Part shown: positions 22,983 to 47,357 of the stretch, in pieces
Layout of the letters: each line of letters begins with the position of its first letter
How positions within the stretch are numbered: the first letter of the stretch is position 1
Source of the DNA: Balneola sp.
Lineage (GTDB): Bacteria; Bacteroidota; Rhodothermia; Balneolales; Balneolaceae
NCBI GenBank assembly: GCA_017640785.1
Contig: JAEPPZ010000009.1
Coordinates: 124,001 to 188,000, forward strand
DNA: 64,000 nt
Reading direction: 5' to 3'
Notes under the pieces: generated by a model
Told to the model about the DNA's origin: nothing
Databases searched by the model: none
What the model saw: only the letters and a program-made list of their open reading frames with translations
Position numbers and translations under genes: made by a program

Positions 22983-24245
22983 TCAACCAATTTTCGAAAA
23001 AATATTATTACGTTCTTCTTCAGAAATTATTCTTTGAAGTTGATAAGACCATTTTTCTAAAGCGGTTTGCATTTCAAGGGTATAATTGTACTTGTTATAT
23101 ACTGCAGTAATTAGGCTACCCTCTGCTGGCTTCTTATGATTCAATATTTTAGACAGTACTTGAGGTGGTGTTCCAAGCCCAGCCAACCGGGTAGCAACAG
23201 TTGTTCTTAATGAATGGATGTTAAACCCCTCTATATTGTAATTTTCTCTTATCCGTTGAGCTGCTTTTTGCTGAGAACCGATTGGATTATTTTTCTTTGT
23301 AGGGCTTTCAAATACAAAATCACTTTTAGAATCTTTTTTAAGCTCCTTTAAGATTTTGATTACATATTTCGGTAGGGGAACTATATGCTGTAATCCATTT
23401 TTAGTATCACTCGATGGGATTTTCCATAACTGTTCCTTAAAGCTAATATTTTCCCATTTCATTAATCTTGTCTCTCCAGATCTTTGCCCTAAAAAGAGCA
23501 ATATTTTAAAAAAAGAGGATACGGGATCAGGGTGATTATTAAGTGCAGTCCACAAGATTTGTATTTGTGAGTCATTAAATTCAACATTAGTCCACTTTAA
23601 CCCCTTTTCAGTAGAACGCTTCTTTGCTTTAATAGGGATGCTACTAGCAATATTAGTCTCTATCCATTCCCTATTTTTTGCATGTTTAAAGATTCCAGAT
23701 AAAATTGCTTGGATACGTTTGGCTTGAGTAGGAGAGGTCTTTGCTATATCATTCAGTAACACTATTAAGTCATACCGTTTTAGCATTTTAATAGGCGTTT
23801 TCCCATCAAGTCCTCTGTTGATTGTTAGCTTATTATTTCCCTCACCTTTAATAAGATGCTTTAACCTGTTCTCATAGTCGATTCTAGTAGAATCTTTTAA
23901 AGTTAAAAGGTGATTCTCTTTATAATTCTCAACAAGCTCTTTAAATGTAATCTCTTCAACTACTCGATCATACATTTTAATATTCTGTGGGTCTATGCCC
24001 TGTTTGACTTTAATGTACAGGTCATCAGCGATAGATCTAGCTTTTGATAAACTTAAAGTTGGATAAGTACCAATAGTGAATCTCTGCAGTTTATCTCCAA
24101 ATTTATATCTGAATGAAAAAGACTTATGTCCATTCTTTGAAACTCGAAAGATGAATCCTGGTCTTACAGTATCGTAGAATTCAAATTCCTTGCCGGGGTA
24201 AGAAAAGCCACGAATAAAAGGGTCGGTTAATTTTTGTTTTGGCAT
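22983..24245 (-). CDS. Tyrosine recombinase/integrase with DUF4102 arm-binding N-terminus
   Basis: Role: site-specific integration of the island at tRNA-Phe. Seen in 420 aa from the ATG at 24245: an N-terminal DUF4102-type domain (KLTDPFIRGF, PGFIFRVSKNGHKSFSFRYK, RFTIGTYPTLSLSKARSIAD), a SAM-like core-binding domain (ITFKELVENYKENHLLTLKD), and the catalytic domain with LLFLGQRSGETRLMKW (Arg), NIHSLRTTVATRLAGLG (HxxR), KILNHKKP (His) and VYNKYNY (Tyr nucleophile). The reading frame stays open upstream to 24470, but that extension is antisense translation of the tRNA fragment (AELNRRHTDFQS) and not protein. All catalytic residues are present, so it is probably active. Confidence 0.93.
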   Translation of the reverse strand: MPKQKLTDPFIRGFSYPGKEFEFYDTVRPGFIFRVSKNGHKSFSFRYKFGDKLQRFTIGTYPTLSLSKARSIADDLYIKVKQGIDPQNIKMYDRVVEEITFKELVENYKENHLLTLKDSTRIDYENRLKHLIKGEGNNKLTINRGLDGKTPIKMLKRYDLIVLLNDIAKTSPTQAKRIQAILSGIFKHAKNREWIETNIASSIPIKAKKRSTEKGLKWTNVEFNDSQIQILWTALNNHPDPVSSFFKILLFLGQRSGETRLMKWENISFKEQLWKIPSSDTKNGLQHIVPLPKYVIKILKELKKDSKSDFVFESPTKKNNPIGSQQKAAQRIRENYNIEGFNIHSLRTTVATRLAGLGTPPQVLSKILNHKKPAEGSLITAVYNKYNYTLEMQTALEKWSYQLQRIISEEERNNIFSKIG

Positions 24246-24405
24246 ATTGAAATAATTCTGAGGGTACCTCGCGGGTAACTGATTTGGGTAATGTAATGAA
24301 AAACAAAGGTAGTAAATGAAAATAATAAAACCTATAAATATATGTGATTCAATGGTTTGCAGTTCATTAAGGAAGCTTATGAAATTCAATGAAATGAAAA
24401 TAAAT

Positions 24406-24454
24406 ACGGACTGAAAATCCGTGTGTCGGCGGTTCAATTCCGCCCGGTCCCACC
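24406..24454 (+). other. tRNA-Phe 3' fragment: island attachment site
   Basis: Seen: anticodon stem acgga / tccgt closing the loop ctgaaaa (anticodon GAA, Phe), variable region gtgtc, T-arm ggcgg-ttcaatt-ccgcc, and acceptor strand cggtccc then acc. Upstream of 24406 there is only AT-rich DNA, with no D-arm and no 5' acceptor strand, so the gene is cut at the anticodon arm. This is the duplicated 3' end left by integration, and the native terminator remains just downstream. It cannot make a tRNA. Confidence 0.9.
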
Positions 24455-24458
24455 TTAG

Positions 24459-24491
24459 AGCCCCATTCATTTTATGAGTGGGGCTTTTTTG
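24459..24491 (+). terminator. Native terminator of the tRNA-Phe locus
   Basis: Stem agccccattcat / atgagtggggct (one wobble) with a three-base loop and a run of T. It marks the chromosomal side of the island junction. Confidence 0.85.
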
Positions 24492-27223: not shown

Positions 27224-27607
27224 ATGTCTGTAAAGTATAAAATCATAGAACGAGGAGAGCCGGGAGTGGTCGGCGGTGGAACCAAGAAGTTTTACGCTTC
27301 ATTAATTAGTTCAGGAAGTCTGGGAATAGAAGCCCTGACCGACAGGATCCAGCAAATGAGTACGGTAACCGGTGCGGATATACGCGCGGTATTGTATGCT
27401 ATTGCTGATATCGTACCTCAGTTGTTGAGCGAAGGACAGATCGTGACGATCGGCGATCTGGGTAACTTCCGCTTAAGCGTATCCAGTGAGGGTAGCGATA
27501 CCGAAGAAGAAGTAACGAAAGCGAACATCCGTAAGTCGCGCATTCTGTTCCGACCGGGTTCTAAGTTCGCAAACATGCTCAGTAACCTGGAGTACGAAAA
27601 ATCATGA
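27224..27607 (+). CDS. HU-like DNA-binding protein (HU-HIG/TIGR01201 type)
   Basis: Role: nucleoid-associated DNA bending. Seen in 127 aa: an N-terminal extension typical of Bacteroidota HU relatives (VKYKIIERGEPGVVGGGTKK, then YASLISSGSLGIEALTDRI), followed by the HU core with VTGADIRAVLYAIADIVPQL, EGQIVTIGDLGNFRLSVSSE and a short arm ending in KSRILFRPGSKFANML. Start is supported by an aggagacatc site before the ATG; the next gene-free 25 bp lead into a terminator. It is a single-gene unit. Family call is firm; its specific nucleoid role is unknown. Confidence 0.88.
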   Translation: MSVKYKIIERGEPGVVGGGTKKFYASLISSGSLGIEALTDRIQQMSTVTGADIRAVLYAIADIVPQLLSEGQIVTIGDLGNFRLSVSSEGSDTEEEVTKANIRKSRILFRPGSKFANMLSNLEYEKS

Positions 27608-28048: not shown

Positions 28049-28291
28049 TTACTTCAGTCTCACTTTATCAGTTTCAATATATTCGAATAAATGGCTGTAC
28101 TGTTTTCCTGCTTTTGTATTTGTATGTGTTCGCAACCGGATTTGCTCCGGTAGTGCTATGTCCCCAGACTTTTGATGGTATAATCCACGCTCGCCAATCT
28201 CTTTGCTGATTTCATGGATAGTTGCAGTCCTGTTCTCTTTACTTAGTAGAACTACAGCAATTGCTTCATGAAGTGTGAGTATATTATTCAT
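28049..28291 (-). CDS. Small winged-helix (HARE-HTH-like) protein in the second restriction operon
   Basis: Seen: 80 aa with LTLHEAIAVVLLSKENRTAT, IHEISKEIGERGLYHQKSGD and EQIRLRTHTN...YSHLFEYIETDKVRL. The order 'HEAI..VL', 'IHEISKEI..RGLY', 'RLRTH......F.....VRL' resembles the HARE-HTH winged helix found in restriction proteins and chromatin factors. Its start overlaps the end of hsdM by 8 bp, so it is translated with it as the last gene. Possible roles: DNA-contact accessory, or a regulator of the operon. Function inferred from fold and place. Confidence 0.6.
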   Translation of the reverse strand: MNNILTLHEAIAVVLLSKENRTATIHEISKEIGERGLYHQKSGDIALPEQIRLRTHTNTKAGKQYSHLFEYIETDKVRLK

Positions 28292-29936
28292 TGGACCTCG
28301 GTAACAAATCTAAACCCAGCTCTTTCAAAAAGCTATTATGCTTCTCAGTAGCTGAATTTATTTTTTTCTCAATATCCACAAGCTTTTCATTTACTTCTTT
28401 TAAGTCAATAATTGGATCTGCTTTCTGAGTACTTACATAACGAGAAATGTTTAGATTGAAACCGTTCTTCTCGATTTCTTCCATCGAAACTCTTTTGGCG
28501 TACCGTTCAATTTTTTCAGGACGCTCAATGTAGGTATCGATTATTCTCTTGATATCCTTTTCTCTGAGTTCGTTTTGACGCTTACCTTTTTTGAAGTTTT
28601 CGTCAGAACTAGCATTGATAAATAATACATCGTCTTCTTTCTTACACTTTTTAAGCACAAGAATACAAACAGGAATACCTGTGGAATAGAACAGATTGGA
28701 AGGAAGTCCGATCACCGTATCAATATGATTGTCTTTGAGGAGTTTGGTTCTGATTCTCTCTTCTGCTCCGCCACGGAATAGCACACCATGAGGAAGAATG
28801 ATTGCCATAGTTCCTTCCTGACTCAGAAAATGAAATCCATGTAACAAGAAAGAGAAGTCGGCAGCGGATTTGGGCGCTAAACCATAACTTTTGAACCGGA
28901 AATCTTCCGCCATTGTATCGTTTGGTACCCAACGTAAACTAAATGGAGGATTGGCAACTACCGCATCAAATTCTGTTTTTTTGGATGGGTTCATTTCATT
29001 TAAAATGTCCCACTGGTTTTTTAGAGTATCCCCGTGAAAGATTTCGAACTCTGTATCTTTCATCCCATGCAGGAGCATGTTCATGCGTGCAAGGTTATAA
29101 GTAGTTACGTTATTCTCCTGACCATAAATTTTACCTACAGTACCGTTATTATCATTGATTCGCTTCCTCACATTCAGTAATAACGAACCCGAACCACAAG
29201 CGAAATCCAATACCTTATCAAGCTTCTTTTTCTTTCCGGTTTTGGGGTCCTGACTGTCTAACGTAACAATCTCAGAAAGAACAGTAGAGATTTCCTGAGG
29301 GGTATAAAATTCACCGGCTTTTTTACCAGAACCAGCCGCAAACTGACCAATCAGGTATTCGTAGGCATCGCCTAGGGTATCGGTATCTGTTGAGAACTCA
29401 GCAATTCCTTCTGCAATTTTCTGGATGATGGTGCAAAGCTTATTATTCCGGTCTTTGGGAGTCTTACCCAATTTTTCGGAACTCAGGTTGATCTCAGAGA
29501 ACAAGCCTTTAAAGGTACTTTCAAAAGACTCGTTCTCAATGTAGCGGAATCCCTCTTCTAACGTGACCAATAATTCACCGTTCTGGGTTCTAGCCATTTC
29601 GGCAATATTACTCCACAGGTGTTCCGGTTTAATTACATAATGCACCTTTCTTCGCATTTGTTTTTCAAATTCGGATACAAACTCTTCATTCTCAGCATAC
29701 CAAATCTGTAATGGCGAATGTGCTTTGAGTTTATTCATTACATCCGCTGGGGTATTATCCGGATAGTCAGAACCCAATTCCTTCTTTGCTGATTCTTCGT
29801 AATTATTCGAAAGGTATTTCAAAAACAAAAAGGATAGCATGTAATCTCGGAAGTCATCTGCATTCATGGCTCCGCGTAATTGATCAGCGATATCCCAAAG
29901 TGTTTTACCTAATGCTTGTTGGTCTTTTTTTGTCAT
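28284..29936 (-). CDS. hsdM: Type I restriction-modification methyltransferase subunit M (second system)
   Basis: Role: N6-adenine methyltransferase of a second type I complex. Seen in 550 aa, the usual length: HsdM_N (RDYMLSFLFLKYLSNNYEES), AGEFYTPQEISTVLSEIVTL, SAM motif I VLDFACGSGSLLLNV, catalytic VVANPPFSLRW, IILPHGVLFRGGAEERIR and GIPVCILVLKKCKK, then a short C-terminal coiled region (VDIEKKINSATEKHNSFLKE). The start overlaps the upstream ATPase gene by 4 bp. It differs clearly from the 922-residue HsdM at 16.6 kb, so the two systems are not a recent duplication. Confidence 0.95.
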   Translation of the reverse strand: MTKKDQQALGKTLWDIADQLRGAMNADDFRDYMLSFLFLKYLSNNYEESAKKELGSDYPDNTPADVMNKLKAHSPLQIWYAENEEFVSEFEKQMRRKVHYVIKPEHLWSNIAEMARTQNGELLVTLEEGFRYIENESFESTFKGLFSEINLSSEKLGKTPKDRNNKLCTIIQKIAEGIAEFSTDTDTLGDAYEYLIGQFAAGSGKKAGEFYTPQEISTVLSEIVTLDSQDPKTGKKKKLDKVLDFACGSGSLLLNVRKRINDNNGTVGKIYGQENNVTTYNLARMNMLLHGMKDTEFEIFHGDTLKNQWDILNEMNPSKKTEFDAVVANPPFSLRWVPNDTMAEDFRFKSYGLAPKSAADFSFLLHGFHFLSQEGTMAIILPHGVLFRGGAEERIRTKLLKDNHIDTVIGLPSNLFYSTGIPVCILVLKKCKKEDDVLFINASSDENFKKGKRQNELREKDIKRIIDTYIERPEKIERYAKRVSMEEIEKNGFNLNISRYVSTQKADPIIDLKEVNEKLVDIEKKINSATEKHNSFLKELGLDLLPRSNE

Positions 29937-31015
29937 AGAATTTTTTGTCCAGGTTTAAACAATTTCTCAATAGCTTCCATTACGTCTATAATTACATTTT
30001 TGTCATTGTCATTTAAAAATGACGCCTTTTGATTATAAAATTCATGAGTTCGAGCATTGATGATATCTGTTTTCTCTGTGACTTCAGATATTCCCATTTT
30101 ATCTAACGCATAACTAAATTTCGGTTTGCCGAGAAAAGAACTTAGCGTTTCAAGTAACTGTCTGATCAAAGCAAAATGGGAATAATCCAGATTATCGTTT
30201 TGAATTGCATCATTAAGCATATCCACCAGTAACAAATGGTAAAAGAAGCTTCCCTTTTTAGCAGATTTTAGAGTGTGATCATCATCACTTTTTTGAAGGA
30301 TTCTAACAACGTATTTATTTTTTTCTTCACCCTTTTGATTTTTCGCTTTGAAGTATGAACTATTATCTGCATTTCTAAGCCAACTTGATAAAGTTGAGAA
30401 CAATCCCGCGTGATGTGTTGTAAGAACAATTTTTGTGCTGTCAATTTTATCCTTGAAAAGATCCAATATTAAACGTGCAGTATTAAAGACATTATTATCA
30501 TCTAGGCTAGAAACAGGATCATCAATAAAGATGTAATCCTTTTGATTGTCAACTAATTCACTAACCTCAAAAAGAGTTAAGAACCAGCACCAAATAAACA
30601 TACGCTCTTCACCTCTCGAAATTTTTACGTTTGTTTCTTCATCTTCTGGATAAAAAAAAGAAACTGATTTCCATCCTTTTTGAGGATCATCGTCCTGAAT
30701 CAGATTAAATCTAAAATCAAATTTGGTAGAATAGTACTTTAGTTTATTTTGAATATCTAATTCAGTACCCATGTACTGGTGGAAATCGTTTAAAGAACTA
30801 GGTTTTATAATAAGCTCCATTGCCTCATTGTCCCATGTAAAAAGGTCTTCACTGTAGGCGTTAAAATACACCCCACTATGGGATCCATCTTTTCTCTTTA
30901 ATGAATCTTTGAGATTAACCGATAGACGTGTTTTTCCTGTACCATTAAAGGCATAAACTAAATATACATTCTCTGATGCTTGAATTATTTTATCTGTTAC
31001 TTCTTGTAATGTCAC
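29933..31015 (-). CDS. AAA/ABC-type ATPase with PrrC/RloC-like anticodon-nuclease signature
   Basis: Seen in 360 aa: Walker A VYAFNGTGKTRLSVN near residues 20-30, an ABC-signature-like ISRGEERMFIWCWFL, and Walker B DYIFIDDPVSSLDDNN followed by IVLTTHHAGLF (His switch). The C-terminal part has Arg285 and Glu289 in FALIRQLLETLSSFLG and His324 in NARTHEFYN. Known: PrrC, encoded within type I restriction loci, uses an Arg-x3-Glu...His triad (R320, E324, H356 as I recall) to cleave tRNA in the anticodon loop when the restriction enzyme is disabled by phage. Spacing here is 4 and 35, against 4 and 32. The gene lies between hsdS (7-bp gap) and hsdM (4-bp overlap), matching a restriction-linked guard. 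Length is near PrrC (396 aa) and far below RloC. Anticodon-nuclease activity is inferred. Confidence 0.65.
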   Translation of the reverse strand: MTLQEVTDKIIQASENVYLVYAFNGTGKTRLSVNLKDSLKRKDGSHSGVYFNAYSEDLFTWDNEAMELIIKPSSLNDFHQYMGTELDIQNKLKYYSTKFDFRFNLIQDDDPQKGWKSVSFFYPEDEETNVKISRGEERMFIWCWFLTLFEVSELVDNQKDYIFIDDPVSSLDDNNVFNTARLILDLFKDKIDSTKIVLTTHHAGLFSTLSSWLRNADNSSYFKAKNQKGEEKNKYVVRILQKSDDDHTLKSAKKGSFFYHLLLVDMLNDAIQNDNLDYSHFALIRQLLETLSSFLGKPKFSYALDKMGISEVTEKTDIINARTHEFYNQKASFLNDNDKNVIIDVMEAIEKLFKPGQKIL

Positions 31016-31022
31016 AGTTAAT

Positions 31023-32264
31023 CTATTTTAAATTTGGAAATAGCCCCTGCATTAATCCTTTTTTATGGTGACGCAATTCATCAATTTTTTCAACTTGTTC
31101 ATTGATTATGGCATCAATAGTTGCAACACAGTTTGATATTTTTATCTGTTCATCTTCACTTTTTGGAAATTTGATTGAAATATTCTTCAAGTCAGTATTG
31201 TATAATCTCTTTATTACACCACCATCTGAAGTTTGCCACTTTATATTAGAATAGCAGTAGTACAAAAAATCGTTTTTTACTTCCGAATGATCATGTTCCA
31301 GCCAAACAATATTTGAATCTTGAAAATATGCTGGCTCACCATTGTAGATAACGAGTCTTCCAATCGTGCCGGATGCAGAAATTAAAATATCGCCCTTATC
31401 AGGAAAGTTGTAGTTCTCTTTGTAATCATTATATAAGTCGTCAGGGATATAAGCGTCAGCCTCTTTTCCGAAAGTTCCAATCTTATAAAAAGGAATACCT
31501 CCTTCAGGATTGGGGGTAGTCTGATTTTTGAAAATGCGTTTACACATTTTCGGGTCACCAACCTCACCAAGCTTTTTCTCCACCCACTCCCCATCTTTCT
31601 CAAACTCTGGAAAGCGAACTTTTGGAACCGTCTCACCTTCTTGTGGAAATAAGTTTTGCAGTAGCCCTTTTTTGTGGTCTTTAAGGGCTTCCAGCTTTTT
31701 GTTGTGGGCGACGATTAACTTATCTAAGGAGGAAAGGCAATCGGCGATTTTTTGTTGTTGGGATTCATTATCTACAATTGGTATTTGGCAAGTAATGATT
31801 TGTTTTGGATAAATATGCTTAACAGTTGTACCCGAAACTAATTTTATTATCTCCCTTTTGGAATGATTAAGTAAATAACTTAGGAAAATTGAATTAACTC
31901 TTAACTTTGGTCGAAGAATGTTCATGTCCCCTCCAAGTAGTACATCATCAAGAGTAATTGCAGAGGCTTTTGCCAAACCATCTGGTGTTACATCCGAGCT
32001 CGGCATCAAAATATCTCCAGATTCACTCCTAAAACCATCTTTTTTATCTGTTCTTGAGTAAATATCTAAAATGATTTCACTATACTTCGTAAACAACTCA
32101 CCATAATGAATACATAATTCAGTACCATCTTCATTAATATCAGATTTAGAAAATGTACTCCCCCTATACACGTCACAAATTTTTGACACCCTAGTAATTG
32201 CCCAATGCCCAGTAGGTTCATCAAATCTTAACTCGGGTATCACCAGCTTCAATTCTTTATTCAT
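31023..32264 (-). CDS. hsdS: Type I restriction-modification specificity subunit S (second system)
   Basis: Role: site recognition for the second type I complex. Seen in 413 aa: two target-recognition domains, the first after LRFDEPTGHWAITRVSKICD, the second after FPEFEKDGEWVEKKLGEVGD, each followed by the conserved helical spacer with 'Q.KI..C...LD' (SQQQKIADCLSSLDKLIVAH; EQIKISNCVATIDAIINEQV) and 'LRHHKKGLMQGLFP'. It starts 8 bp inside the end of hsdR. The recognition domains are unlike those of the hsdS at 15.4 kb, so specificity should differ. Confidence 0.93.
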   Translation of the reverse strand: MNKELKLVIPELRFDEPTGHWAITRVSKICDVYRGSTFSKSDINEDGTELCIHYGELFTKYSEIILDIYSRTDKKDGFRSESGDILMPSSDVTPDGLAKASAITLDDVLLGGDMNILRPKLRVNSIFLSYLLNHSKREIIKLVSGTTVKHIYPKQIITCQIPIVDNESQQQKIADCLSSLDKLIVAHNKKLEALKDHKKGLLQNLFPQEGETVPKVRFPEFEKDGEWVEKKLGEVGDPKMCKRIFKNQTTPNPEGGIPFYKIGTFGKEADAYIPDDLYNDYKENYNFPDKGDILISASGTIGRLVIYNGEPAYFQDSNIVWLEHDHSEVKNDFLYYCYSNIKWQTSDGGVIKRLYNTDLKNISIKFPKSEDEQIKISNCVATIDAIINEQVEKIDELRHHKKGLMQGLFPNLK

Positions 32265-35259
32265 AAGCAGCTAACCCCGAGATTTCGCGCCCTTCCGCCA
32301 ATTTCTTAAGTTGGGGAACTAAGTCTTCCATCAAAGCCAGTTCTTTGGTTCGGCGTTCTTTCCAACTGAGTTCGAGGGGTTCCAGTAAATCAGTGAGTTT
32401 TTCCCCGTCAAAGATCATACGATTCATAATTTGTTCCACAAAGGTTTTCAGCTCTGCTGTTTCCAAGCCATGTTTATTTGCTATCTCGGCTATTTCTTTA
32501 TTGTGCTTATCAACCTTAAAGGTTTCGTAGCCTTCGCGAAGGGTTTGCACATCTTTACCGCTTTCCCAGTCCAGACTGTTTATATAATCCGTCAGGTCTT
32601 CCTCTTCTTCCATCAGGTTCGCGTTGGACTTCAGTAAGCTAATCACCTGAGCCTTAGACATCTTTTGCTTGGATGGTTTTTTCTGGGTGCTGTCAGCCAC
32701 CAGATTCATAATGTAGTCGTAGTCAATCACCGCAGAGGCAAACAATACAAACTCAAAATCCAGTTGTTGGATATCCTCTGAGGCCTCATCTCCTTTTTTA
32801 TCCTGAATGGCTCGTAATTGTTTCGCAGTTTCTAAATATGAGCTTCTGAATTCCTGTAATGAATCAGCCGGAAGTATGCTCTCAATTTCGGCTTGTTGTT
32901 TTTCATCCAGATCGGTGTATTGATCCAACTGGGTTTTAAGGCGCTGCACTTCCTTAAAGTTCTTTACAAAAGCCACTTTTGCCGCATCTCCTCTTAAACT
33001 ATACACTTCTGAAGGTTCATTTACCAGATTGTGCTCCTGCATAAATTCACCCAGTTTTTCTACAGCTTCCTGATATTTGTCAATAACCACGGGAGCAGGA
33101 TCGACCATCCAGATTTCTTTGGCATTACCTGCATCTTCTCCGGAAAAGAGAGCAATGGCCTGATTAACCAAATCCTGCTGTGAACGGAAATCCAGAATAT
33201 TCCCATACGGCTTACTATCGTTTAACACACGGTTGGTACGGGAGAAAGCTTGTATTAAACCATGATACCGAAGGTTTTTATCTACGTACAGCGTATTGAG
33301 GTATTTGGAATCAAAACCGGTTAACAGCATATCTACCACAATGGTAATATCAATCTTGTTTTTATGCGGATAATCTTTGTTGCTGTATTTCTGATTCTTG
33401 ATACGACTTTGTACATCCTGATAGTATAAATCAAAATCGTTAATGCTGTGATTGGTCCCGTATTGCTCATTATAGTCATTAATGATCTCAATCAGAGCTT
33501 GCTTCTTTTCTTCTGGATTATGCTTGTTGTCTTCTTTTTCCTGAGCTAAATCTTCCTGGAGTTGTTTGATATCTTCCGCATTCTTTTGGCTTTTTTGATC
33601 GCCATCTTTTGCAATCAATTGCGCAGGAGGAGAAAATACACACGCAATATTTAATGGAGCATAGTCTTCATCTTCGAAACTCTTTTCTTTCTGAAGTGCC
33701 CTAAACAAACGATAATACTCAATAGCATCATTAATGGATGACGTAGCGAAAACGGCATTGAACTTTCGTTGGTTAGTTGCCGCATTATGTTTGTTTATAA
33801 TAGCTTCAGCAACGGCTTGTTGTGTAATGCCTTCGCCAGGCTTCACAAGCTTCTCATCTTTGCCTTTGAAATAATCGATATGGAAACGTAATACATTTCG
33901 GTCATCGATGGCATGAGTTATGGTGTATGCATGAAGTTCCTTTTCAAAAATGGTCTTCGTAGTCTTGTAGTATTCAACCTCACCTTCACGCACTTTATAG
34001 GTGGCATTATCATCAAAAATGGGAGTTCCGGTAAACCCGAATAACTGAGCTTTAGGAAAGAACTCTTTAATTGCCTTATGGTTTTCGCCAAACTGAGAAC
34101 GATGACACTCATCAAAAATGAATACCATGCGTTTATCACTTAATGGCTCTAACCGTTCTTTGTAGTTCTTTTTATAAGTTCCATCTAATGCCAGCCCTAA
34201 TTTCTGTATTGTCGTCACAATCACCTTATCTTCATAAGAAGTAGAGAGTAATCGTCTCACCAACATTTCGGTATTAGTATTTTCTTCTACACTGCCTTCC
34301 TGGAACTTGTTGAACTCTTCACGAGTCTGTCTATCCAAATCTTTACGATCTACAACAAACAAACATTTCTCAATCTCCGGATTACTTTTTAATAGTGTTG
34401 AAGCCTTAAAAGAAGTAAGCGTTTTCCCACTTCCCGTTGTATGCCAAATATAACCATTTCCCCGATTCTCATTAATGCAGTCCACAATCCTTTTCACAGC
34501 ATAAATCTGATAGGGTCGCATCACCAGCATTTTCTGCTCACTTTCCACCAATACCATATACTTACTGATCATTTCAGCCAGAGTACATTTGGACAGAAAT
34601 TTCTTCGTGAACGGTTCAAGATGCGTTATTTTCTTATTGTCTTCATCTGCCAATTGATAGATGGGGAGGAATTGCTCATCTGCATTAAATTGAAAATGCT
34701 GTTTTTTGTTATTGGCGAAGTAAATAGTGTTACTTCTGTTGCTTACAATAAACAACTGCATAAAACACATCAGAGAATTGCCATAACCGTTGCCGGGTTC
34801 ATTCTTATAATCCACAATTTGCTGCATGGCTTTACGCGGAGAAATATCCAGTCTCTTCAATTCGATCTGAACCACCGGTAACCCATTAATCAACAGAATT
34901 ATATCATACCGCTGATTGCTGTTTTCGGTATTCATTCGTAACTGGGTAATCACCTCAAAGTCATTCTTACACCAATCCTTAATGTTTACCAGAGTATAAT
35001 GTAGAGGAGTACCGTCTTCCCGCTGGAAATATTGTTGTTCCCGAAGCTTTTTGGAAGCTTCAAAAACGTCCGGCTCAATGATATCTTCTCTAAGTCTTAG
35101 AAATTCATTTTCTGAAAGACGTACTCGATTCAGTGTTTCAAACTTCTTTTTGAAGTTTTCCTCAAGAGCGTACCTGTCTGTAATATCAGATCTGTAAGTA
35201 TACTTAAGCTCTTGTAGATACTTAACTAAACTTTCTTCTATCTGGTGTTCTTTGATCAT
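32257..35259 (-). CDS. hsdR: Type I restriction endonuclease subunit R (second system)
   Basis: Role: translocase-nuclease of the second complex. Seen in 1000 aa from the ATG at 35259 (MIKEHQIEESLVKYL; the frame is open 16 codons further, but that stretch is not conserved-looking). PD-(D/E)XK nuclease: NQRYDIILLINGLPVVQIEL with Asp about 119 and Glu-x-Lys at about 133-135. Walker A TTGSGKT at about 272-278, DECH box IFDECHRSQFG at about 383, FGFTGTPIFDDN, VVDMLLTGFDSKYLN and GLIQAFSRTNRVL. The C-terminal 250 residues are charged helices that dock to the methylase. First gene of a five-gene minus-strand operon hsdR-hsdS-ATPase-hsdM-HTH. Confidence 0.94.
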   Translation of the reverse strand: MIKEHQIEESLVKYLQELKYTYRSDITDRYALEENFKKKFETLNRVRLSENEFLRLREDIIEPDVFEASKKLREQQYFQREDGTPLHYTLVNIKDWCKNDFEVITQLRMNTENSNQRYDIILLINGLPVVQIELKRLDISPRKAMQQIVDYKNEPGNGYGNSLMCFMQLFIVSNRSNTIYFANNKKQHFQFNADEQFLPIYQLADEDNKKITHLEPFTKKFLSKCTLAEMISKYMVLVESEQKMLVMRPYQIYAVKRIVDCINENRGNGYIWHTTGSGKTLTSFKASTLLKSNPEIEKCLFVVDRKDLDRQTREEFNKFQEGSVEENTNTEMLVRRLLSTSYEDKVIVTTIQKLGLALDGTYKKNYKERLEPLSDKRMVFIFDECHRSQFGENHKAIKEFFPKAQLFGFTGTPIFDDNATYKVREGEVEYYKTTKTIFEKELHAYTITHAIDDRNVLRFHIDYFKGKDEKLVKPGEGITQQAVAEAIINKHNAATNQRKFNAVFATSSINDAIEYYRLFRALQKEKSFEDEDYAPLNIACVFSPPAQLIAKDGDQKSQKNAEDIKQLQEDLAQEKEDNKHNPEEKKQALIEIINDYNEQYGTNHSINDFDLYYQDVQSRIKNQKYSNKDYPHKNKIDITIVVDMLLTGFDSKYLNTLYVDKNLRYHGLIQAFSRTNRVLNDSKPYGNILDFRSQQDLVNQAIALFSGEDAGNAKEIWMVDPAPVVIDKYQEAVEKLGEFMQEHNLVNEPSEVYSLRGDAAKVAFVKNFKEVQRLKTQLDQYTDLDEKQQAEIESILPADSLQEFRSSYLETAKQLRAIQDKKGDEASEDIQQLDFEFVLFASAVIDYDYIMNLVADSTQKKPSKQKMSKAQVISLLKSNANLMEEEEDLTDYINSLDWESGKDVQTLREGYETFKVDKHNKEIAEIANKHGLETAELKTFVEQIMNRMIFDGEKLTDLLEPLELSWKERRTKELALMEDLVPQLKKLAEGREISGLAAYE

Positions 35260-35319
35260 GCAATAAGATAATATTTTAATAATAACTTGATATACCTTAT
35301 TGAACAAAAGAGGAGAGGT

Positions 35320-44753: not shown

Positions 44754-44786
44754 AGCCGGGTGTTTAATTACATCCGGCTTTTTTTA
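44754..44786 (+). terminator. Terminator of the subtilase gene
   Basis: Stem agccgggtgt / acatccggct, loop ttaatt, then seven T. It touches the stop codon of the converging gene at 44784. Confidence 0.85.
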
Positions 44787-45776
44787 TGCAATTAAATTTA
44801 ACTCCTGAAGATCTTCTACGGGCTCGTCGAAACTGCAACTCCCGAACGAGGTGACAGAAAGATCGCGTAACATGTGCAGCTCTTCAAAAGAAACAGATTG
44901 TCCTCTCCATGAAAACTCAGATTCTTCAAAAGAGAAGTTTGAAGCATTTTCGTCATTCAGAATTTCCAGCAATTCGTCTTCAGAAAGCTTTTTGGAATAA
45001 CTTAACAAAGAAGCCCCGAACACATTCAGAAAACCATGCATCTTAGTTTGTACAGAATCATTGTAGTGACGAACAGGATGGTGAAGTCCGGCCGTGAATT
45101 TTAGAGGGACAGCGTTTTCTCTGGAAAAAGAAATGGCTTCAGCCAAATAATCCGTTGGCGGAAATTGAAAAGCTTCTACTCCACCGCAACGGATCTTAAA
45201 ACCGGAAAAACAGTAATTTTCCTTTTCATTCGATTCAAGCCATTCATTGTGTGTATGAATGCCCTGAACAAGTCCTTTGGCGTATTTCATATCGAAATCA
45301 AATCCCGGAACTTCAAAAAAGATCTGATAAGGTAATGTTTCAGATTTTGCCATGGATTGAACAGCGTACTCAATAGCTGCTTGAAGATCGGATGAGCTTT
45401 CTTCCTTCAGACAAACCAGCGGCACCTTAATTTCTAAAGTGGATATGTGGACTCTTTTATCTGTGGATGCAAGAGCGCGCTTAATGACTTCTACAGTGTT
45501 GTCGATTACTTTTTTGAAGCTGTAAAGATCATCAGAGGCAGCACCAACCAGCGTTATTTTAAAGGGAGAAGGAGAATCAGGCTCCGCATCAATGAGTGTA
45601 ATAAGTTTAAGCAGTAGTCCGGTTCCGACAACAAATTTTGAAAGCATCCATGCTTCTTTCTGCTCAATATGAGAAAGATATTTCCTGAACGCCTCTTCCA
45701 AAGGTAGCTCAGAAGGCGGATATAAGCCCGCATAATCAATAATATCGGATAAGAAGGGACGTAAACTAGTCTTCAA
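44784..45776 (-). CDS. Conserved hypothetical protein
   Basis: Seen: 330 aa, soluble, no signal peptide. Segments that look conserved: FLSDIIDYAGLYPPSELPLE at the start, YQIFFEVPGFDFDMKYAKGL, FSGFKIRCGGVEAFQFPPTD, AVPLKFTAGLHHPVRHYNDS and TKMHGFLNVFGASLLSYSK. Alternating strand/helix rhythm with 'KFTAGLHHP' suggests a TIM-barrel-like fold, and the Arg/Cys/His-rich segments could form an active site. I do not know the family's function. It is read alone, convergent to the subtilase and divergent from the HU pair. Confidence 0.6.
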   Translation of the reverse strand: MKTSLRPFLSDIIDYAGLYPPSELPLEEAFRKYLSHIEQKEAWMLSKFVVGTGLLLKLITLIDAEPDSPSPFKITLVGAASDDLYSFKKVIDNTVEVIKRALASTDKRVHISTLEIKVPLVCLKEESSSDLQAAIEYAVQSMAKSETLPYQIFFEVPGFDFDMKYAKGLVQGIHTHNEWLESNEKENYCFSGFKIRCGGVEAFQFPPTDYLAEAISFSRENAVPLKFTAGLHHPVRHYNDSVQTKMHGFLNVFGASLLSYSKKLSEDELLEILNDENASNFSFEESEFSWRGQSVSFEELHMLRDLSVTSFGSCSFDEPVEDLQELNLIA

Positions 45777-45936: not shown

Positions 45937-46221
45937 ATGAATAAATCAGAAACGATAAAAGCACTTAGTGAACGACTTGAGTTAACTCAAACTCAAACAG
46001 AAGAGTTATATAACTCGCTAGTGAGTACTTTTACAGAGCACCTGTCAAACAATAACGGCTTCAGCATTCCCGATTTCGGTAGCTTCAGCTCTGAGATCAG
46101 AGAAGAATACAAGTCCTATAATCCGCACTATAAGCAAATGATGCTTCTCCCAAAAAAGAAAGTAGTTCGGTTTTCTCAAAGCTCGGCTTTGAAAGATGAA
46201 TTCAATGAGGCGGAGCTATGA
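45937..46221 (+). CDS. HU family DNA-binding protein
   Basis: Seen: 94 aa, the size of a plain HU subunit: KSETIKALSERLELTQTQTE (helices 1-2), LSNNNGFSIPDFGSFSSEIR (the 'I..FG.F' turn) and the arm region with YNPHYKQMMLLPKKKVVRFS. The usual arm motif with GRNP is changed to YKSYNPHYKQ. It overlaps the ATG of the next gene, which starts with another HU domain, so the two are co-translated and may form a heterodimer. Confidence 0.88.
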   Translation: MNKSETIKALSERLELTQTQTEELYNSLVSTFTEHLSNNNGFSIPDFGSFSSEIREEYKSYNPHYKQMMLLPKKKVVRFSQSSALKDEFNEAEL

Positions 46222-47357
46222 GTAAAAAAATTACATTTTCGGAATTGATAAAAGCGTTTGCTGAATCAAATGGTATTACTCAGCAGAAAGCAGAGGAGAT
46301 GATCCGTGGTGTTTTTGATCTGGTAATTGATGATCTGGAAGAAAGTGGAAAAGCATCTATAACCAACTTTGGTAGTTTCGAATTAAAAGACGTTGCTGAA
46401 AGAACGGGTATAAATCCGCAGACAAAAGAAGAGATCGTAATCCCGGCGCATAAGAAAGTATCATTCAAGCCTTTTAAAGCACTTGAACAAACAGTAAACG
46501 CACCTTTTACAGGATTGGAACCAACCTTGCTTGGTGAAAAGTCCGGAACTGAAACAGAAGAAACAACGGCAAAGCCAGAGAAAGAGCAGGAATCTGAAGT
46601 ATTTGAAGATCCGTTCGAAGAAGTTATAAAGCCTGCTGAAGAACAGGCCGATGAAGCGGAAACGCCGGATTCAGTTGAGGAAGAAGCTGAAGAGGAACAA
46701 GAAGAAAGTGAAGCAGAAGCTGCTCCTGTTTTTAAAGCACCCGAAAAGGAAAATGGAAATGATATAAGTTGGGTCTTTATAGTTCTGGTACTGTTGATAG
46801 CCGGGACGGGAATTTGGTTTTTCTTTCTGAGAGATTCAGATCCGGGGAGTATTGACAATGTAGTTGCAGGAAATCAGACTCCGGCTCAACAACAAGCTGA
46901 GCAGGTTGAAAAAGTGCCACCTGCTGAAACGCCGGTAAAAGAAGAAAAAACCCCTGAAGCTTCAGCGGCATCATCAGAAACAAAGAATAATGTCAGTGCA
47001 GAACCGGCTGTGCAAAAAGAAAAACCAGCCCCAAAAGAAATGACCGCTTATATCATCGAAAAAGATGAATGGATGTGGGATATTTCAAGAGAAGTGTACG
47101 GCGCACCGTATTTATGGCCACTGATTTTTGAAGCAAATAAAACCGTAAATGACGATCCTAATTTAGTGGAGCCGGCTAATACCCTGATGATTCCTTCTTT
47201 GGAAGGAAGTTCGGCTAATCTGACAAAAGCAGATTATGCAAAGCTGGCCAAAGCAACGAAGTTAGTTTCTGAAGCATATGCTAAATCAGGAAATTCGGAA
47301 CGTGCGAAGGAATATTCAAGATTCGCTGCTAAGTATGAAAGGCATAGTAAAAACTAA
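46218..47357 (+). CDS. HU DNA-binding domain - membrane helix - LysM-like domain fusion
   Basis: Seen in 379 aa: residues 1-95 are a complete HU domain (ITFSELIKAFAESNGITQQK, SGKASITNFGSFELKD, RTGINPQTKEEIVIPAHKKV). About 100-180 is a Glu-rich disordered linker. A single membrane segment follows at about 184-205 (ISWVFIVLVLLIAGTGIWFF), then an Ala/Pro/Glu-rich spacer. About 275-335 is a LysM-like unit: MTAYIIEKDEWMWDISREVY, YLWPLIFEANKTVNDDPNLV, ANTLMIPS. The tail is helical. Topology implies DNA binding in the cytoplasm and peptidoglycan or glycan contact in the periplasm. It overlaps the upstream HU gene by 4 bp. Role in chromosome-envelope tethering is inferred. Confidence 0.85.
   Translation: MSKKITFSELIKAFAESNGITQQKAEEMIRGVFDLVIDDLEESGKASITNFGSFELKDVAERTGINPQTKEEIVIPAHKKVSFKPFKALEQTVNAPFTGLEPTLLGEKSGTETEETTAKPEKEQESEVFEDPFEEVIKPAEEQADEAETPDSVEEEAEEEQEESEAEAAPVFKAPEKENGNDISWVFIVLVLLIAGTGIWFFFLRDSDPGSIDNVVAGNQTPAQQQAEQVEKVPPAETPVKEEKTPEASAASSETKNNVSAEPAVQKEKPAPKEMTAYIIEKDEWMWDISREVYGAPYLWPLIFEANKTVNDDPNLVEPANTLMIPSLEGSSANLTKADYAKLAKATKLVSEAYAKSGNSERAKEYSRFAAKYERHSKN

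Follow-up and report, generated by a model that had tools for sequence, protein, structure and literature searches.

Among the described systems, the nearest relatives of the gene pair investigated in this study are the HU-CCDC81_bac-SPOR proteins (PF18174, PF18175 and PF05036), which, like the pair, combine two HU-type domains with a linker, a hydrophobic helix and a C-terminal domain of a peptidoglycan-binding type. The CCDC81_bac Pfam families are said to originate from Burroughs et al. 2017 (doi 10.1080/15384101.2017.1315494), whose title refers to chromosome partitioning. A second system with comparable parts is Vibrio HubP, where a LysM domain, followed by a transmembrane (TM) helix and an acidic region, places the protein at the pole and the origin of chromosome 1 is held via ParA1 (PMC8789113). 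HubP and FimV share with the fusion protein described here the LysM domain, a single TM helix and an extended acidic region in the cytoplasm, but their order is reversed, with an N-terminal periplasmic LysM domain and a C-terminal acidic/TPR region, and HubP contains no HU domain and acts via ParA1 and protein partners. We regard HubP, the best-studied case of such a protein holding a chromosome region at the envelope, as a functional analogy and not as a relative. By profile as well as by structure, the LysM domain of the fusion is most similar to that of YgaU/Kbp (NF008399; PDB 7pvc, 7vcm). Kbp is a soluble K+-binding protein composed of a BON and a LysM domain, and since the fusion lacks a BON domain, a role as K+ sensor by analogy to Kbp is a weak candidate. 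Precedents for a heterodimer of HU-type subunits are provided by IHF and HU of E. coli, from which the pair differs in the membrane tether of one partner and in the distinct arm motif YNPHY..PKKKVV of the other. To our knowledge, the ways in which chromosomes are held and moved in Bacteroidota are poorly known, and a conserved pair with a DNA-binding-type fold on the inside and a wall-binding-type fold on the outside offers a concrete candidate for a direct link between nucleoid and wall.

The pair is located in a stretch of 64,000 nucleotides of a Balneola genome, referred to as the window, and consists of a stand-alone HU protein (HU1) and a fusion whose N-terminal HU domain (HU2) is connected via a TM helix to a LysM domain (Table 1). 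The original prediction had placed both genes and their overlap exactly, and its HU domain, acidic linker, single membrane helix and LysM-like unit are all found in our analysis, whereas the composition of the spacer, which had been described as Pro/Ala and is in fact Glu/Pro/Ala/Lys-rich, required correction and the C-terminal helical hairpin, evident in AF2 models, had been missed. The model of the full-length fusion, built from an alignment of 25 sequences, contains an HU fold (residues 1–94) followed by disorder, the helix, a second disordered region, the LysM domain and the hairpin, the latter three ordered elements at the positions listed in Table 1.

Table 1. Features of the HU1/HU2-TM-LysM gene pair, with positions counted from the first nucleotide of the window
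Feature	Position	Strand	Evidence
HU1, stand-alone HU/IHF-fold protein, 94 aa	45937..46221	+	PF00216 (9.8e-21); own clade in tree
HU1 arm motif YNPHY...LPKKKVVRF	within 45937..46221	+	26-member family alignment, arm-tip proline near-invariant
ATGA start/stop overlap of 4 nt coupling the HU1 and HU2-LysM genes	46218..46221	+	sequence
HU2-TM-LysM fusion gene, 379 aa	46218..47357	+	sequence; PF00216; AF2 model
HU2 domain, aa 7-94	46236..46499	+	PF00216 (4.9e-26); alignment; match to solved HU/IHF
Acidic disordered cytoplasmic linker, aa 95-181	46500..46760	+	net charge -26 from aa 95 to TM helix; pLDDT<50 over 104-180
Single TM helix, aa 182-205, predicted N-in/C-out	46761..46832	+	AF2 helix; hydropathy; positive-inside count
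Glu/Pro/Ala/Lys-rich disordered periplasmic spacer, aa 206-274	46833..47039	+	pLDDT<50 over 207-272
LysM domain, aa 275-326, YgaU/Kbp-like LWP variant	47040..47195	+	NF008399 (2.2e-8); AF2 fold; structural matches; orthologues pass PF01476
C-terminal two-helix hairpin, aa 337-378	47226..47351	+	AF2 models; alignment

Both HU domains are assigned with confidence by PF00216, with scores of 74.3 bits for HU1 and 91.2 bits for HU2 at a cut-off of 22.4, and the profile is matched by all members of the two family alignments (25/25 and 26/26). Foldseek searches with the model of the fusion retrieved HU/IHF structures, some of them in complex with DNA. The hairpin is kept in Balneolaceae and Marinimicrobia, as judged from the alignment and individual sequences. 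The nearest named relative of the Balneola-like organism is Balneola sp. EhC07, with a 96% identical protein. A promoter scan upstream of HU1, restricted to the sigma-70 consensus that is ill-suited to Bacteroidota, did not detect a site. Divergently oriented to HU1, the window encodes a protein of 330 residues (44784-45776, minus strand) that has no Pfam match at E<=1, and a relative of this protein occupies the same divergent position in a locus of another genus.

Several observations connect HU1 to HU2. HU1 is located directly upstream of the fusion in all 26 Balneolaceae pairs inspected, most of them with the same or a similar overlap, and equally at every parseable Marinimicrobia or Bacteroidia locus of the full HU type, where the same or similar start/stop overlaps are found. 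In a tree of 71 HU domains, whose inner forks are poorly resolved in the short alignment of 96 columns, 31 HU1s form one clade (100/98) and 31 HU2s another (97/92), each of them spanning Balneolaceae, Marinimicrobia and Bacteroidia, and this congruence across three lineages indicates that either a single ancestral pair would have been inherited or that the pair would have been transferred as a unit. At one locus (L194, genome G657), the two are joined in a natural single-frame fusion of the order HU1-HU2-TM-LysM. Conversely, seven Marinimicrobia loci carry a DUF1508 domain (PF07411; three loci assigned by Pfam, the remaining four by sequence) in the place of HU2, ahead of the acidic, TM, LysM and hairpin regions, and none of these seven has an HU1 reading frame ending within 150 nt upstream. 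Because of the adjacency of the genes, the congruence of their clades, the fusion in L194 and the absence of HU1 beside the DUF1508 forms, it is likely that HU1 and HU2 form a heterodimer. The suggestion that the overlapping HU gene provides a dimer partner has found strong support in the joint gain or loss of both genes, the matching clades and the natural fusion. A deviating form of HU1 is encoded in two Marinimicrobia loci (L143:143-877 and L152), where a protein of 245 residues carries a long acidic and Pro-rich C-terminal tail that distinguishes it from other HU1s.

The fusion contains no signal-like segment at its N-terminus. Among 47 proteins, the 12 residues to either side of the TM helix contain on average 3.06 Lys and Arg residues on the N-terminal and 0.91 on the C-terminal side, with an excess on the N-terminal side in 39 proteins and the opposite bias in one, and this distribution of charges therefore predicts HU to reside on the inside and LysM on the outside, as demanded by the geometry that had originally been envisaged for a link between nucleoid and wall. 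In Balneolaceae and Marinimicrobia, the periplasmic spacer has a median length of about 68 residues; the medians, obtained by regular expressions, were restricted to these two groups since some Bacteroidia rows did not fit the pattern. By our own arithmetic, this spacer would correspond to a contour length of up to roughly 25 nm, sufficient to span the distance to the peptidoglycan.

The identity of the C-terminal unit is less immediately apparent from profiles. In the window copy, PF01476 gives no match even at E<=1, and the NCBIfam model NF008399 of YgaU matches residues 264–327 with 34.6 bits, covering its LysM part only and staying below the equivalog cut-off of 134 bits, which refers to the full-length BON-LysM protein. 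In an AF2 model of the LysM-hairpin region alone (pLDDT 86), the unit adopts a beta-alpha-alpha-beta fold followed by the helical hairpin, and its best structural matches in Foldseek and VIA-align are LysM domains, with Z-scores of 6.0–6.5 for Kbp and further matches in contractile-injection and phage baseplate proteins and in fungal and bacterial proteins, including LysM domains that bind GlcNAc polymers. Two orthologues (L134, 23.0 bits; L179, 22.6 bits) exceed the PF01476 cut-off of 20.9, as does a DUF1508 form (L132). Although the missing PF01476 match of the window copy is a finding that the original prediction had named as speaking against it, this objection is overturned by the fold and the orthologues, and the modelled unit folds as a LysM domain. 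In Marinimicrobia, a separate protein of 224 residues (L133:1197-1868) combines a signal-like hydrophobic N-terminus with a LysM-hairpin region and contains no HU domain.

A survey of its phylogenetic spread, which had been proposed as a check, found the fusion to be kept in Balneolaceae, Marinimicrobia and Bacteroidales-like families. Of 92 genomes of Balneolaceae, the family of the host, about 74 contain the fusion and 71 contain HU1; the three genomes containing the fusion without HU1 (G016, G074, G107) hold a match that lacks the HU end. Both genes are absent from 18 of the 92 genomes, 11 of which are at least 90% complete. The genomes without the pair include two of the same genus as the window organism. 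Since several healthy genomes of this genus do without the pair, the lineage does not depend on it, a point that weighs against the tether proposed below. At the thresholds used, the pair was not found in other families of the same class. In Marinimicrobia, 21 of 149 genomes contain a match at E<=1e-12, DUF1508 forms included, and in the order of the Bacteroidales-like families the number is 39 of 295 at E<=1e-22, with the weakest match probably being a plain HU. The orthologous pairs in Marinimicrobia and Bacteroidia rule out a curiosity confined to Balneolaceae, and the conservation in dozens of genomes rules out a sequencing artefact or an accidental membrane anchor. The neighbouring genes vary between lineages: in Bacteroidia the order is usually rimO-HU1-HU2-LysM-moxR, and three loci that were followed further have ftsY upstream of it, whereas a Marinimicrobia pair (L183) succeeds a gyrA-yggS stretch. 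At one locus (L180:4369-5607, G573), a transposase-like reading frame is inserted between HU2-LysM and moxR in an otherwise constant order. The exchange of HU for DUF1508 in the Marinimicrobia loci L126–L132 would make a tether of this kind modular.

The relation to HU-CCDC81_bac-SPOR proteins is reflected in the common order of HU module, TM helix and envelope-binding domain, and the fusion in L194 resembles such a protein whose SPOR domain has been exchanged for LysM. The window pair differs from them in its LysM-hairpin region, in the separate gene for HU1 and in both HU domains, which in Balneolaceae and Marinimicrobia are full-armed, ordinary members of PF00216. On PF18175, HU2 of the window reaches 14.9 bits at a cut-off of 35, and PF18174 matches neither window protein, compared to 97–101 bits on PF18174 and 64–87 bits on PF18175 in true members. 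These cut-offs, together with the missing SPOR domain, for which a profile search of the pair gave no match, rule out direct membership in CCDC81_bac. Because matches to PF18174 and PF18175, although weak, occur in the HU1/HU2-LysM family, and because of the layout of L194, both systems probably share ancestry. Typical proteins with HU-CCDC81_bac_1, bac_2 and SPOR domains are encoded alongside the LysM pair in Bacteroidia genomes. For the HU-LysM fusion, we found no description in the literature searched, with Burroughs et al. 2017 lying outside that search, and within this scope the HU1/HU2-LysM device is so far unnamed. The view that no function had been assigned holds for the LysM form, although it had overlooked the close HU-CCDC81_bac-SPOR kind, of which this genome itself contains a divergent copy.

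The two-gene unit and its conservation, the HU and LysM folds, the predicted topology and the linkage of HU1 with HU2 are computed results. In the mechanism that we propose, HU1 and the HU2 domain would constitute an obligate cytoplasmic heterodimer of the HU type, which would bind the nucleoid without strong sequence specificity. From HU2, the chain would pass along the acidic, flexible linker, cross the membrane as a single helix and extend through the flexible periplasmic spacer to the LysM domain, which would hold peptidoglycan and thereby attach DNA to the cell wall by a single chain. We judge the chances that the two genes form such a membrane-spanning tether between nucleoid and wall to be close to balanced. 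Binding of DNA by the HU1:HU2 complex is reasonably probable and binding of peptidoglycan by the LysM part is favoured to a slightly lesser degree. That the device serves to position or segregate the nucleoid is plausible at a level just short of even. The specific proposal of a dedicated HU heterodimer that links nucleoid and peptidoglycan directly through one transmembrane polypeptide, and in this way places or segregates the chromosome with no ParA-type intermediate, is a tentative one.

The leading rival to the tether, which we consider unlikely, is a protein-protein adaptor, where HU1:HU2 would not bind DNA and instead bring a cytoplasmic partner, such as a division, wall-synthesis or motor protein, to an envelope site marked by LysM. 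CCDC81 has been proposed as an adaptor of this kind and the HTH-fold of RodZ is known to be one. The tip prolines of the HU arms were counted from alignments and by reading of rows (for example L026, L029, L031, L125, L136 and L143). In Balneolaceae, the tip proline is near-invariant in HU1 (P63, within the YNPHY motif) and invariant in HU2 (P67), where R62 is nearly invariant. With two exceptions, HU1 retains its arm and tip proline throughout the three lineages, including 7 of 7 Bacteroidia, and the tip proline of HU2 is retained in Marinimicrobia in 9 of 9 cases. This retention in both subunits, together with their scores as ordinary HU proteins in PF00216, argues against the adaptor. Conversely, the proline is found in 0 of 7 Bacteroidia HU2s, L194 has lost the HU2 arm and the SPOR paralogue is likewise arm-less, and the net charge of HU2 is about zero to negative in most Balneolaceae, in contrast to the basic arms of HU1. 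These properties and the replacement of the HU2 module by DUF1508, which is not a known DNA-binding domain, favour the adaptor and count against the tether; the weak matches of HU1 to HU-CCDC81 profiles are also in line with an adaptor. In the simplest reading of these sequences, HU1 would be the DNA-engaging subunit in all lineages and HU2 its membrane-bound dimer partner in all, contributing to DNA contact in some. Since the tip proline is lost in Bacteroidia and the arm deleted in L194, HU2 may in these cases serve solely as a platform for dimerisation.

On the periplasmic side, the closest solved LysM relatives, Kbp and the baseplate proteins, are not known as established peptidoglycan binders, which likewise counts against the tether. 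These structural neighbours and the missing PF01476 match of the window copy would suit a LysM-hairpin region that binds a different ligand, such as an ion, a protein or a capsule glycan, and anchors HU to another feature of the envelope, an alternative made improbable by the Marinimicrobia and Bacteroidia orthologues that pass PF01476, by the lack of the BON domain found in Kbp and by the GlcNAc-polymer-binding LysM domains among the matches. Similarly improbable is an envelope sensor, whose LysM domain or hairpin would read the state of the wall, with regulated proteolysis or a conformational change freeing or retargeting the HU pair to alter gene expression. The single TM helix with disordered linkers on either side and the combination of a DNA-binding-type fold inside with a wall-type fold outside would be appropriate for this purpose, yet HU is not a sequence-specific regulator, and the neighbours, which differ by lineage, include no conserved protease, anti-sigma factor or kinase. 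Finally, a role towards foreign DNA at the envelope, in uptake or exclusion, as proposed for some HU expansions of Bacteroidetes (HU-HIG), could be related to the weak matches of HU1s to PF18291 and to an HU-HIG protein in a restriction island of the same genome. It appears highly improbable in light of the vertical conservation of the pair beside housekeeping genes (hemW, rimO, ftsY, gyrA) and outside of islands.

With a parallel HU-SPOR system in the same genomes, one membrane may hold two HU tethers that are directed to different parts of the wall. SPOR domains are usually markers of denuded glycan at the septum and LysM domains of the wall more generally, so that the two systems invite direct comparison. 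The genome of the window itself contains a divergent second envelope-tethered HU unit (L008:3034-6966; contig C16 of G000, about 100033-103965), consisting of an HU-like reading frame of 66 residues that lacks the first helix, followed by a protein of 585 residues with an arm-less HU, an acidic region, a TM helix and SPOR. Genes for ExbB, ExbD and TonB-C succeed its HU-SPOR gene, and a link to a TonB-type motor is also seen in another member of the order (L228), where ExbB is encoded downstream. This HU-SPOR form occurs throughout the order, also in genomes that lack the LysM pair. Elsewhere in the window, the HU-HIG protein (27224-27607; PF18291, 1.4e-34) adjoins a type I restriction-modification operon (28284-35307), whose hsdM and hsdS genes are separated by an extra gene for an ATP-binding-type protein of 360 residues. 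Together with an integrase (22983-24470), this region has the appearance of a defence island.
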